From IMG/VR virus record IMGVR_UViG_3300021961_000104, positions 1 through 59,340 of that record: 59,340 nt of DNA; one strand, 5' to 3'. The DNA comes from a virus. Shown here in pieces: positions 1,718 to 29,980 of this stretch. A model generated the notes under the pieces. The model was given only the letters and a program-made list of their open reading frames with translations. It searched no databases and had not been told where the DNA came from. Position 1 is the stretch's first letter. The number at the start of each line of letters is the position of its first letter. Position numbers and translations under genes: made by a program.

Positions 1718-1760
1718 GAAGTAATGGTTAATGCGAGTTCGATTCTCGCGACTTCAACTA
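1718..1760 (+). ncRNA. Minimal tRNA-like element 1 (T-arm plus acceptor remnant)
   Basis: A perfect tRNA T-arm is present: stem GCGAG/CTCGC (1733-1737 and 1745-1749) around the loop TTCGATT. The following seven bases GACTTCA, then A and CTA, occupy the place of an acceptor strand. Five of these (1751-1755) pair with GAAGT at 1718-1722, leaving a 10-base bridge AATGGTTAAT that resembles a D-loop. There is no anticodon arm. It may be a decayed tRNA or a very reduced tRNA mimic; it shares the ACTA end with the elements at 4740 and 6650. Confidence 0.45.
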
Positions 1761-1785
1761 AATTAATAAATTAAAAAATAAAATT

Positions 1786-4535: not shown

Positions 4536-4733
4536 ATGAATATTAAATATTGTAAATGCGGAAAAACAGTGCATCCAATACGATTAAAATTAGGTTATAA
4601 TACTTGTGTAGATCATTCTACAGTGCAAACTTACTCTTATGTTCCAATTATCGAGCATAAAACAGGTAATACAATTCAAATCGTTAGCCAAGAAGTTAGT
4701 GCTTCAGTGCACAGAGCTTGGCGACGTAAATAA
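4536..4733 (+). CDS. Conserved phage protein with CxC motif, 65 aa
   Basis: The N-terminus YCKCGKTVHPIRLKLGY followed by TCVDH gives a Cys/His set suited to binding one zinc ion, and the segment HKTGNTIQIV is characteristic of a family seen in many marine and gut phages. It may be a small regulator or RNA/DNA-binding protein. The stop lies 6 bases before tRNA-like element 2. Confidence 0.75.
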   Translation: MNIKYCKCGKTVHPIRLKLGYNTCVDHSTVQTYSYVPIIEHKTGNTIQIVSQEVSASVHRAWRRK

Positions 4734-4739
4734 AATCAC

Positions 4740-4819
4740 GGGGGTGATTGGTTTTGACATAGCGTAAAGCCTACAAGGAAACGTTATGGAAGAGGGTTCG
4801 AATCCCTCCACCTCCACTA
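4740..4819 (+). ncRNA. tmRNA-like/tRNA-Ala-like element 2, no message domain
   Basis: Acceptor stem GGGGGTG (4740-4746) pairs fully with CACCTCC (4809-4815) with G3:U70, followed by A73 and then CTA. T-arm GAGGG/CCCTC surrounds loop TTCGAAT. The segment after the acceptor, ATTGGTTTTGAC, matches the D-region typical of tmRNA (GGUUUCGAC type) rather than a D-arm. A 7-bp stem ATAGCGT/ACGTTAT (4759-4765 and 4781-4787, one G-U) with a 15-base loop replaces the anticodon arm. G3:U70 plus A73 is the classic alanyl-tRNA synthetase identity. There is no tag reading frame. Confidence 0.75.
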
Positions 4820-4842: not shown

Positions 4843-5073
4843 ATGGCTAAATACAACGGTTGGACAAACTACGCTACATGGCGTATAAACTTAGAAATAT
4901 TAGAAGATATTGAATTTGAAAAACAAGTTTCTGCAGATTATTTAAAAGAAATAGTAGAAAATATAATATTCACTAACAAATCTGAAGGTGGATATATAGA
5001 AGATTACGCTAGAGCTTTTGTATCTGAAGTTAATTTCTATGAAATAGCTAAAAATATTAATGAAGAAAAATAA
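4843..5073 (+). CDS. Conserved phage protein, NYATWR type (DUF7249-like), 76 aa
   Basis: The ATG at 4843 is chosen because an upstream in-frame ATG at 4786 lies within tRNA-like element 2, and because the product then begins MAKYNGWTNYATWRINLE, the hallmark of a small family found in many phages. The rest is an acidic helical region. Function unknown; assignment to the DUF family is from memory of the motif. Confidence 0.75.
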   Translation: MAKYNGWTNYATWRINLEILEDIEFEKQVSADYLKEIVENIIFTNKSEGGYIEDYARAFVSEVNFYEIAKNINEEK

Positions 5074-6649: not shown

Positions 6650-6733
6650 GGGTGTGACATCGGTTGATTGTACTAGGAACTCGGAGAGGAGATACGGTAC
6701 AGGGTATAGGTTCGAATCCTATCACATCCACTA
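6650..6733 (+). ncRNA. tmRNA-like/tRNA-Ala-like element 3
   Basis: Acceptor GGGTGTG (6650-6656) pairs fully with CACATCC (6723-6729), again with G3:U70 and A73, followed by CTA. T-arm ATAGG/CCTAT surrounds TTCGAAT. The D-like segment ACATCGGTTGATT includes GGTT. A central stem TGTAC/GTACA (6669-6673 and 6697-6701) holds a 23-base purine-rich loop instead of an anticodon loop. Stem sequences differ from element 2 while the fold and the alanine identity pair are preserved, which argues for selected structure. Confidence 0.75.
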
Positions 6734-27200: not shown

Positions 27201-29980
27201 TCTATTTTAACCTCTCCTTCTACCAAAGCACCTTTAGCTCCTTCTTTAGCTACAGCTAATTGAACTTCAGACAAGCCTTTACCAGATTGAATTGTTTTGT
27301 TGTAATCTTTTAAGAAGTTAAAAATATCTTTACCTGTATCAAACGTTATGTTTAAAGGTTGTTTACCAGATCTAAATAAATTATTAAATAAATCTATTAA
27401 ACTTTCAAAAAACCCTTTTGTTTTTTCATTATAAACAATATCTCCATTAGACATGGCTTCGCTAACCAATGGTATAACTTCTTCCCACGTAGCAGCTGCA
27501 GAGTACTTAGGATCTTCTAAGTATTGTCTAAATCTATTTTCAAGATTACTATTTGTTATTGATATGTCTTTATTATTTACTATTTCAGAAAGTAAATTTT
27601 TTCCAAATATAATTGATAACTCTGGATTATCTTTAAAGGTTTGTTGGAAAAATGGATGTAATATTTCGTGTTGATCTGTTGTGAATTTAAAATCTTCTGC
27701 AGCGGCTCTATCGTTTATTAATATTATTTTTTTGTCATTTAATATAATTGATTGACCATATCCAGTTGATTCTTGAACTTCTCCGCCTTGATCTTTTATT
27801 TCTTGTACTCTTTTTTCGTAACCTTCTTGTGTATCAAAAGTTTCAAAATCAGATTCTAATTGTTCTGATATTATTTTAGCAGCTTCTCTGGCTTTTGATT
27901 GTTTTATTTTAATTAAATTTTCTTTTATTAAATTTTCATCTATGCTATTTTTAATAGCAAAAATATCATTAGACAACTTTTTATTCTTATTTACAACAGC
28001 TCCTTTTGCTGAACCATATTGTCTGCTATCAATTTCGCCATTTATATAAGCAACATTTAAATCTTTTAATATTTTATTATTTTTTTCTTTTTCAGAAACT
28101 AAATTTAAAACTTCTGCTTTTTGATTTGAATCTAAAAGTTTTGCTGAAATATAATTATTTTCTAAAAATTCTTTTAATGAATTTTCAGTTGTATTTATTT
28201 CTATATCAATAGCGTCTCTAAAAGCTTTATTTTTATTTAAAGCTCTAGCTTTTTGTAAGCCTCCAATAGTTTCAATGTGCTGATTGACAAATGCTAAAGA
28301 TTCTTTATCACTTCTCAAAGCTTTAGCTATTGTAGATGGCGCCGAAACTACCGTAGAACCAACAAGACCTTGTAAATAACTTTCAAGCCCATCTTCTGAA
28401 GCCATAGCTGATATGCCATCAAGTACGGAATTATTAAGGTTTTTACCGTCAGCTAAACTTTTATTTATTTCTTCAGTTCCTAATTGAAAAACCTCTGTTA
28501 AACCTTCTTTATTTTGAGTTAAAAGTAATGAAGCAAAAGGAGAATATTTACCTGTATACCCAGCAATTTGTTTTGAAATACCTTTAAGTCCAGCGTATTC
28601 AAGACTCATAGCCAAAACTCCTAATGTAAGTGGAGTGTTGATTTCTGTTTCATTATTTCTAACTAACTCTTCTATTGGGTTCTCTGAATCTTTATATTTA
28701 GAATTTGCTTTTGAAACATTGTAGTCTACATACATAGGAGCAACTATTTGAGGAAACAAAGAACCTCCTCTAGTTAAGGCAGCTGGTGCTGCTGTTTCAA
28801 TAAGACTTCCAACCGCATTAAATACTCCACCTATTATTTCAGGTATATCTCCTTTTTTAAAACCCGATACAATTCCACCAACGTCTGTTCTTGTTTCGCT
28901 TAATTTTTTTACTTTACCAAATTGCTCGATCATATAATCTTCAGCAAATTTACCAACTTCATTATCTGTACCTGAATATACTGCTTTTACGTTTGAACCA
29001 ATTTGTCTTTTTAGTCTACTTAATTCTTTCCAACGCTCAGGGTTTTTAGAAAATAATACCTCGCTGTTATCGTTTGGGTCAATAAAAGCTATAGCTGTTT
29101 CTGGCATTTTTCCGGTTAAAAAGTCGGCAGCATCTTGGCCGGCAGTATTTTTTATAAAATCTATTCCAGCAAGTTTAGCAGACTCCCAAGAAGTTTCTAG
29201 TCCTATAGGTATATTTTCAACAGTACCAATAAACCTTCCGGTAATATCCATAATTGGTTCCATTATTATATCAGCTATTGTTGGCTTTATTTCCGGTATA
29301 TCTTTTTTAGATAATTCAGAAATATAATCAGAAACCTTGTCTAATTCTTTATATGATACTATAGCTTTGTTTGTTTGTAAATTATCTCCTCCAAAAGCTT
29401 TTCTTATATTATTTATTTTTTGTAAATTTAAAAACTCATTTTCAGGTTTTAAAACTTCTTGTTGTGTTTTATTTAAAAAGTCATTAAAACTTTCCCCTTC
29501 TTTTTTTTCTTTTTGATATTTACCAAAAACATTATAAAGATCATTATCTATAGTTTCATCTGGAGCTAATTCCAATTGATAATAAGCTATAGTTCTTTCT
29601 GGAGTACCTGATTTATATTTTTTTAATATAGAATTTATTTGATCTTGTTTGTATTTTTTCTCTTCTTTTTCAAACTCCTTTATAGACTTTCCAAACAAGT
29701 CTTTATGCATTTTATCAAAATCACCTTCTTGATATTTCAAATCTCCATTTCCATATACTACATCTGAAAATGATGTCTCGGACGCATCCGGTTGTTTGGG
29801 TGATGCAGTTGCATCCGTTTTGTCTACAACACCCTTCGTCTTTGCTTCGTCGATAACGTCATCTACAACTTTATCTTCAACAGGTGGATTATTTTTTTTC
29901 CACTCTTGAGCTTTGTCAAATATTTCTTTATCAGATAATCCTTGATCTTGTAGAGAAGCTATATATTCTAATAATGTCAT
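21230..29980 (-). CDS. Giant polyvalent internal virion protein, 2916 aa
   Basis: A very large protein. Around residue 772 there is HEILH, an HExxH zinc-peptidase motif with WEEVIPLVSEAM as possible third ligand. At about 1743 is the HAD motif FDFDDTLA; at about 1783 starts a P-loop kinase insert MVGGPGAGKT followed by NQDIALE and VIDGTGA; motif VLTARP (about 2027) and FADD (about 2081) then complete the HAD fold. A segment near 2550 (LAWANTPMQYARIQKRAIQDL) resembles a domain of phage large polyvalent proteins. Two C-terminal repeats have KYEExRVNKIxEL. Late-gene position suggests injection with DNA. Confidence 0.85.
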   Translation of the reverse strand: MTLLEYIASLQDQGLSDKEIFDKAQEWKKNNPPVEDKVVDDVIDEAKTKGVVDKTDATASPKQPDASETSFSDVVYGNGDLKYQEGDFDKMHKDLFGKSIKEFEKEEKKYKQDQINSILKKYKSGTPERTIAYYQLELAPDETIDNDLYNVFGKYQKEKKEGESFNDFLNKTQQEVLKPENEFLNLQKINNIRKAFGGDNLQTNKAIVSYKELDKVSDYISELSKKDIPEIKPTIADIIMEPIMDITGRFIGTVENIPIGLETSWESAKLAGIDFIKNTAGQDAADFLTGKMPETAIAFIDPNDNSEVLFSKNPERWKELSRLKRQIGSNVKAVYSGTDNEVGKFAEDYMIEQFGKVKKLSETRTDVGGIVSGFKKGDIPEIIGGVFNAVGSLIETAAPAALTRGGSLFPQIVAPMYVDYNVSKANSKYKDSENPIEELVRNNETEINTPLTLGVLAMSLEYAGLKGISKQIAGYTGKYSPFASLLLTQNKEGLTEVFQLGTEEINKSLADGKNLNNSVLDGISAMASEDGLESYLQGLVGSTVVSAPSTIAKALRSDKESLAFVNQHIETIGGLQKARALNKNKAFRDAIDIEINTTENSLKEFLENNYISAKLLDSNQKAEVLNLVSEKEKNNKILKDLNVAYINGEIDSRQYGSAKGAVVNKNKKLSNDIFAIKNSIDENLIKENLIKIKQSKAREAAKIISEQLESDFETFDTQEGYEKRVQEIKDQGGEVQESTGYGQSIILNDKKIILINDRAAAEDFKFTTDQHEILHPFFQQTFKDNPELSIIFGKNLLSEIVNNKDISITNSNLENRFRQYLEDPKYSAAATWEEVIPLVSEAMSNGDIVYNEKTKGFFESLIDLFNNLFRSGKQPLNITFDTGKDIFNFLKDYNKTIQSGKGLSEVQLAVAKEGAKGALVEGEVKIDQRTKGAKAIKSFESLMQDEVTDTAAKESKRVYQEVEAMKPDLLDSNKKKDATIMAAYSLVDEAKRRMRNINLSEDVIDDIARTFALDEKRGLVSLIDKWTPDRNDSVMGYLNSKSASGRSLFDARLQEFYEADPRYNEIIQSESQEGVTEKMQRQTATEQDVEVSTKPVTTLIKPSSLISNDAVAKIKENIASKIKGIDPEQMTFKKLGDLAPEIIAQEIGIPVKKLTDPTANLSKGDANAIQRFVNKNADKLLKILPEGAVIEAATDKLLGTSTGVPKGLLNAFYTKKPRITKGAGLSPFALNKGITKADFLKTFGIVEGKKAEDFSARSSEAQALKGIANLYGRLVTNEIVRSETDLNLEVKQDIAAGKSKSMASKRITPENLEELKGLSILRSKTDLAKSLRYNSPSINEQNRKTIQDQIQEAVEKYGLDTATLRAGMMGSGGRQSFYGKIVDGKFVKGKKGTIGVEKYVKTTDGRYFLEKSAEGSLGSEITNWVAKPGRLYYGEKDPVYIKLIESTKEYKGKKPIKINIKNAFTDKAKVQSKVNMDVLDHVVNQLADAVANGMSLDVAGTIIVQSYQATSGLIKIAAPFLYRSNTMEYAGKGSKPEQRKGEKYREEHNPPASVVGAYIMWAIKNNKAQPIMQAIRDNYYQTQLSKKDDFLLDMAKLDSTLPEGFTIFDNPIVRLAAAGIDLNTITNPYTGKTMAETVNAGIPLDVYNSYNESQKLEAISYQNEQIIKAISDLNYNPSQTIKAYLPLVKGKAMASKRNSDLIPDSIKYDKAVTVKTSIDALSKADKALNNARKLNAPVKKIRVFDFDDTLARTNSRVIYTMPNFEGGFSPESVRQKAIFMVGGPGAGKTNIGKGLKLGRQGYKVVNQDIALEVMKAEAGLPAKEAEYTTEQISTRAKLGAAARKAAVAKFDKYAANGDGMVIDGTGASYPATMKKVKQLQDAGYEVHMVVANTSLETALARNKARVERSLPDFIVERSWNQVQESTELYRKDFGDKLYEINTEEIGFGEDLPQDFLDKVYAGINSNIQGKLEAGTFAEQATDLEAQGAEWNFSEFSKVIDGKEGPLFKVAKIIADKRGTKDIFVLTARPADAAKPIQQFLKSLGLNIPIKNITGLGDGAAEAKARWIMDKASEGYNDFYFADDVTGNVKAVEEVLSQIDVKSKVQQAKASKRQDFDRVINDMIFDTAGIETYKKYSAAKARTVGAGKGKYNFFIPAGAEDFTGLLYEMIGKGKKGDAQMAFLKQNLLDTYNRSEISVTQAKIAAMNDFIALKTQLKTLPKTLNKQTGIGKFNYSHAIRVFIWQSQGVEIPGLSKKDIQDLTSFVESDPKLKVFAEQLFTIQKDKPYPSPSDSWLAGTISSDIINDINTVKRAEYQQEFRENVDIIFSEENLNKMEAAYGTNWRAAIEDSIRRMKSGSNRPKGGDSTTQGILDWLNNSVGAVMFLNTRSALLQTISSVNFINWSDNNIFKAGLAFANQKQFWKDFITLMNSDYLVERRNGLKINISESEIADAAANSKNKATAIISYILNKGFVMTQIADSFAIASGGSTFYRNRIKSLVKSGMDPKLAEQRAFEDFRAIAEESQQSSNPVRISKQQASTAGRVILAWANTPMQYARIQKRAIQDLVNGRGNAKANVSKIIYYGIVQNLLFNTLQSAIDAIGFGDDDDDDSKEELKNTRKEKAVKVANGMLDSQLRGLGITGAAVSSLKNFLLTLMEENDKKRPEYEEAVEDLFAFSPPLGSKVGKIYGGLRSFSWNKKEMKEKGWSLDNPAYLAVAQVFTGLTNVPVDRVVKKTNNMRGIFSELSVRWQKIALILGWSTYDVGLPYYGGFDAVEPLTPEEEAAEAVKLMMDQTNTAEQKQMLEELGLTKAEIKELKYEENRVNKIIELKNKPIEKIETKEEVESTKKEVKPKEEVKPKKLTAEQRLQKQFDSIKAENKPDQVKTLTNFGLSKKEIRALKYEEDRVNKILELMSKKQ

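Follow-up and report, generated by a model that had tools for sequence, protein, structure and literature searches.

Is a stretch of phage DNA that resembles the two ends of a tmRNA and has no message between them a working tmRNA gene, a relic, or a gene for an RNA of another kind? The question arises at an 80-base element in an IMG/VR virus record of 59,340 bases, the whole of which was analyzed here and is referred to as the window. A preliminary description of the element (positions 4740-4819), which gave its sequence and coordinates exactly, had proposed a tmRNA-like domain with alanine identity and no message, and had offered as explanations a decoy for alanyl-tRNA synthetase (AlaRS), SmpB or EF-Tu, or a processing signal.

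The element and its locus

The portal protein encoded in the window shares 50% identity with its counterpart in the podovirus MW202828, ~42-44% with those of Elemovirus and Maribacter phage Panino, and 33% with that of Callevirus phi38:1. Based on this relatedness, the host is presumably a flavobacterium-like member of the Bacteroidota. The phage also encodes a GroEL-like chaperonin (PF00118; 53882-55435, - strand), and groEL and a 10-kDa chaperonin are found in the relative MW202828 as well. The element lies between two small open reading frames (ORFs), and its parts are as follows, where TLD denotes the tRNA-like domain and MFE the minimum free energy fold.

4536..4733, + strand: upstream small ORF, which ends 6 nt short of the element; Pfam and PHROG gave no match
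4740..4819, + strand: tag-less (TLD-only) tmRNA gene, 80 nt; RF00023 65 bits, E = 3.9e-23; family covariation
4740..4746, + strand: 5' strand of the acceptor stem, GGGGGTG, with G3 at 4742; 7/7 pairs with 4809-4815
4750..4758, + strand: stemless D region of the tmRNA type, GGTTTTGAC; aligned to the RF00023 consensus
4759..4765, + strand: 5' strand of P2, ATAGCGT; 7-bp stem, the same position covarying in 40 distinct relatives
4766..4780, + strand: A-rich internal loop in place of the message domain, AAAG-CCT-ACA-AGG-AA; MFE
4770-4778, + strand: inner hairpin CCT-ACA-AGG; MFE, and consensus helix 3 with 3/3 pairs changed on both sides
4781..4787, + strand: 3' strand of P2, ACGTTAT; MFE and family pairing
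4792..4808, + strand: T arm GAGGG-TTCGAAT-CCCTC; 5/5 pairs
4809..4816, + strand: 3' strand of the acceptor stem, CACCTCC (U70 at 4813), and A73; sequence and pairing
4817..4819, + strand: CTA where CCA would be encoded; sequence, with CCA encoded in only 15/46 relatives
4843..5073, + strand: downstream small ORF, DUF7249-like; PF23907 at E = 6e-5, just under the cut-off

The remaining letters are ATT ahead of the D region and GGAA ahead of the T arm. The MFE fold of the 80 nt (-29 kcal/mol, z = -2.8) consists of the 7-bp acceptor stem, the 7-bp P2 with one closing C-G pair, the inner 3-bp hairpin and the 5-bp T arm, and thus agrees with the main fold first described, a 7-bp acceptor stem, a T arm, a tmRNA-type D region and a 7-bp stem in place of the anticodon arm; the inner hairpin had been missed.

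The Rfam tmRNA model RF00023 matches the element from end to end (model positions 1-374) at 65 bits (E = 3.9e-23), above its gathering score of 47 bits, with about 306 message-side positions deleted; the tRNA model does not reach its own, and no other Rfam match in a scan of the whole window does so. The RNA has the tRNA-like domain of a tmRNA, with a 7-bp acceptor stem carrying G3:U70, A73, a stemless D region and a T arm, in the normal 5'-3' order and with a short stem replacing the message. A tag reading frame with a resume codon is absent from it, as are the pseudoknots and the long P2, and the strands of its P2 are separated by only 15 nt. Since the tag and the pseudoknots were looked for and are absent, the element belongs to the tag-less (TLD-only) phage tmRNAs and is not a working tmRNA. 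ARAGORN called neither a tRNA nor a tmRNA here, and an ordinary tRNA, including tRNA-Ala, is ruled out by the lack of a D stem and of an anticodon arm with a 7-nt loop. A permuted, two-piece tmRNA is likewise ruled out, because the halves are in normal order and the tmRNA_permuted model scores 18.2 bits against a gathering score of 47. The combination of a T arm with a 7-bp acceptor stem bearing G1:C72, G2:C71, G3:U70 and A73 occurs twice in the real window and in 0 of 100 dinucleotide-shuffled windows; this shuffle test and the RF00023 E value rule out a chance fold. The element is a complete tmRNA tRNA-like domain from which the entire message region has been deleted.

A family of tag-less phage elements

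Relatives were sought with a broad pattern that comprises only the D and T loops and ignores the acceptor stem, which gave at least 105 unique raw matches. A perfect 7/7 acceptor stem is present in 60 of the 105 raw matches listed, versus 6 expected on shuffling, and the distribution is bimodal; among those listed, 59 of the 60 with a perfect stem carry G3:U70. A narrower pattern yielded 46 representatives, each separated from the others by more than 12 edits, which are clearly distinct tag-less elements located nearly all on phage contigs, whereas a stricter D-loop pattern had zero matches. It should be noted that conservation of the D and T loops is partly forced by the search pattern and that T-stem and acceptor pairing served as filters in the parsed set, while the P2 result and the RF00023 scores are independent of these choices. 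P2 is paired in 91% of cases versus 44% on shuffling (z = 15.6; 40 long representatives), and a slide of one base lowers the pairing in the same 40 to ~40%. G3:U70 and A73 are found in all 46 representatives, three off-register or chance parses without G3:U70 having been set aside, and acceptor pairs 4-6 occur in many base combinations that covary.

Compensatory substitutions, whose absence had been named at the outset as a refutation of the proposed element, are abundant: in a 20-sequence alignment 18 of the 23 consensus pairs are changed on both sides, a number equaled in 0 of 500 shuffles, and the only invariant pairs are acceptor pairs 1-3 and one pair of the T stem. The inner hairpin is conserved across the family and covaries. 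Two layouts can be distinguished, one of 65-72 nt with a simple 5-bp P2 and one of 78-85 nt with a 7-bp P2, an A-rich internal loop and the inner hairpin. As no tag-less copy was found in the nearest relatives of the window phage, the covariation is family-wide and not within its own clade. These data demonstrate that the element is neither chance nor a relic; it is a genuine RNA gene, conserved among phages, and of a type that is known but has hardly been explored.

Of 50 phage records searched, 47 exceed the Rfam cut-off, nearly all of these with a single strong element, and none of the 50 encodes SmpB. Across ~85,000 genomes of bacteria and archaea, a similar pattern matched only 10 times, and two of these matches are permuted tmRNAs. 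Unannotated copies are present in the cultured Streptomyces phages LuckySocke, BRock, Shaeky and Lululemon and in Pontimonas phage phiPsal1, and in 21 phage records, mainly relatives of Lululemon, a match spans 80% or more of the window element. Lululemon (PQ184791) carries, 10 kb apart, an unannotated tag-less copy (86069-86148) and a full tmRNA (96322-96590) with the tag ANSKFAFALAA. The Streptomyces phage copies are located in tRNA arrays; a passenger of such arrays is ruled out for the family, as 53 of 66 element loci have no other tRNA. Six copies, at five IMG/VR loci (L013, L065, L073, L081 and L083) and in phiPsal1 (L163), lie directly upstream of the major capsid gene and are mostly preceded by the head maturation protease, and other copies are found near exonuclease, primase, helicase or lysis genes. 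A search with the downstream neighbor of the window element gave one homologous locus, the junction of which has no element.

The window holds a further tRNA-like element, also missed in the preliminary description.

6650..6733, + strand: second tRNA-like element, possible diverged sister; R1 37.9 bits

It is placed between two ORFs and has a 7-bp acceptor stem with G3:U70, A73, a T arm and a minimal D arm, while in place of a normal anticodon loop there is a 5-bp stem with a 23-nt loop that contains a small hairpin. The family model R1, which includes the window element among its members, gives it 37.9 bits, versus 28 or less for other tRNA-like matches. It scores 24.8 bits with RF00005, below gathering, and also fails the tmRNA gathering score; ARAGORN made no call on it, and a pattern search for its relatives yielded only an ordinary tRNA-Tyr. 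It is possibly a diverged sister of the tag-less tmRNA. Separately, a perfect T arm (GCGAG-TTCGATT-CTCGC) followed by GACTTCAACTA is found at 1735-1762 (+ strand), in a region with no long ORFs and ahead of a small one; its acceptor 5' strand is not clear and R1 gives it an E value of 0.77.

tmRNA genes in related phages and known counterparts

Among nine relatives of the window phage that were searched, no tmRNA match was obtained in MW202828, two Elemovirus genomes, phi18:3 and an Immutovirus. Two Cellulophaga phages carry a full one-piece tmRNA.

NC_021796 26803-27164, - strand: full-length tmRNA of phi38:1; not in the feature table shown
MT732433 42950-43311: full-length tmRNA of Calle_2

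Both encode the tag AQIEANMEAVNAILNLEVAVGV, which is unusual in having no LAA ending and perhaps provides no normal degradation signal. Maribacter phage Panino (PP540027, about 27620-27889), a phage of Bacteroidota, has a permuted tmRNA with the 3' piece ahead of the 5' piece, the latter beginning GGGGGTGATTGGATTTGAC, and its acceptor stem is identical to that of the window element. The one-piece tmRNA of phi38:1 aligns with the window element almost base for base in the acceptor stem, G3:U70, A73, the stemless D region and the T arm, with a compensatory change in the acceptor stem (U6:A67 / C6:G67); the window element differs in having no tag frame and no pseudoknots and in its length (80 versus ~360 nt). 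The presence of three forms of tmRNA gene within one phage neighborhood would fit a tag-less form that arose by deletion.

Although the element had been presented as without precedent, a phage RNA of this kind was described as early as 2009 in mycobacteriophage DS6A, the tmRNA of which is TLD-only according to the passages of PMC4131195 and PMC11915505 that refer to Mao et al. 2009. The same passages state that a molecule similar to the DS6A RNA strongly inhibits E. coli tmRNA whether or not it can be charged, perhaps by titration of SmpB. The DS6A RNA and the window element are both TLD-only, a likeness drawn from the published description, and the window element comes from a different phage lineage, presumably with a Bacteroidota host. 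The message region has also been lost from the tag-less tmRNAs of jakobid mitochondria and Mallomonadaceae plastids (PMC11915505), which, likened again by description, are organellar and may serve rescue. In the SmpB crystal structure 2CZJ, an engineered TLD joins 25 nt of the 5' end and 34 nt of the 3' end by UUCG (PMC3929946). Short phage elements of 65-68 nt (for example L036, with a TTCG loop) have nearly the layout of this man-made molecule, whereas the window element belongs to the longer class with an inner hairpin. What is new here is the member from Bacteroidota, the breadth of occurrence, the strict alanine identity and the contexts, such as the position upstream of the major capsid gene.

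Ribosome rescue as the probable target

We propose that the RNA probably inhibits trans-translation by competing, in alanylated form, with host tmRNA for SmpB and stalled ribosomes; the proposal draws on the conserved sequence features and on analogy with the inhibitory RNA. The flanking ORFs are on the same strand, one ending 6 nt before the element and the other likely starting (at 4843) 23 nt past it, and no terminator-like site was found near it, which suggests processing from a polycistronic transcript. The RNA would thus probably be cut from an early transcript, like a phage tRNA, and, as it ends in CTA, CCA would need to be added after processing. Because G3:U70 and A73 are invariant, we infer charging with alanine by host AlaRS. 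The charged RNA would bind host SmpB and EF-Tu, AlaRS, EF-Tu and SmpB all being known to bind the TLD (PMC3929946); the SmpB would have to come from the host, since neither the 50 records nor the window encodes it. Host tmRNA would then face a rival both for SmpB and for ribosomes that have stalled at the end of an mRNA and, as the rival brings no resume codon, the tagging and degradation of nascent chains would be blocked during infection. High expression, as titration would need, is expected from a position directly upstream of the major capsid gene.

The sharpest rival to inhibition is template-free alanine tailing, in which the alanylated TLD and host SmpB enter stalled ribosomes, take over the nascent chain and add at least one alanine, in repeated rounds until other factors release the chain, as an RNA counterpart of RqcH tailing. 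We regard such an active rescue RNA as unlikely, and we know of no case of alanine tailing in vivo by a TLD. In vitro, SmpB and a TLD fragment make polyalanine without template mRNA (Shimizu and Ueda 2006, as cited in PMC3929946), and tag-less mitochondrial tmRNAs have been suggested to still help with incomplete mRNAs (PMC11915505); however, the similar RNA in E. coli inhibited tmRNA, in the account cited above. As that inhibition is described as independent of charging, pure titration of SmpB leaves the retention of alanine identity unexplained, and its strictness (46/46), which is easier to reconcile with an RNA that requires charging than with a pure sponge, suggests that the RNA may be charged and enter ribosomes. 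A broader and more doubtful version is that message-less, alanine-charged tmRNAs divert rescue with host SmpB in many phages, either by tailing or by holding the nascent chain without a tag.

The decoy idea fares well on the side of SmpB and trans-translation, given the published similar RNA as it is cited, while no result favors AlaRS or EF-Tu. Retention of G3:U70 and A73 throughout would fit a decoy for these two proteins, which would lower alanine charging or the supply of ternary complex; yet a minihelix would be enough for this, the family also retains P2 and the stemless D region that faces SmpB, and the abundance of the proteins would require very high RNA levels, so that we consider it quite improbable. 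An even slighter probability attaches to a processing signal only, cut by RNase P and 3' tRNA processing. The tight spacing between same-strand ORFs would suit it, but G3:U70, the tmRNA D region, P2 and the inner hairpin would be unnecessary and are nevertheless kept in diverse contexts; nothing was found in favor of a mere signal. A last candidate is a fragment of an attP site or the decaying remains of a tmRNA, whether from a host or from a phage; in its favor, ssrA is a site of phage integration, and the tmRNAs of relatives are one-piece in phi38:1 and Calle_2 and permuted in Panino. We give this almost no credence, as the element retains its two halves, linked by a stem that covaries, the window has no match to the tyrosine integrase family, and at other loci the neighboring genes encode capsid, protease, helicase and lysis functions, with no integrase among those tested. 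The 390-aa neighbors, once candidates for integrases, are mostly major capsid proteins or exonucleases.

If the doubtful tailing or holding reading were true, phage and host proteins made from cut mRNAs would escape the proteolysis mark, and the window may encode two RNAs of this sort. Previously, a single cultured phage, DS6A, was on record for a TLD-only RNA. Based on our findings, these RNAs form a conserved phage family in which covariation is clear, alanine identity never varies and SmpB is not encoded by the phages. They occur in phages that can be cultured on Streptomyces lividans as well as in phages seen only in metagenomic data. They suggest ribosome rescue as a common target in the conflict between phage and host and offer a concrete test system, in which a single base pair, G3:U70, separates the models: an SmpB sponge should not need charging, while an RNA that enters the ribosome should.
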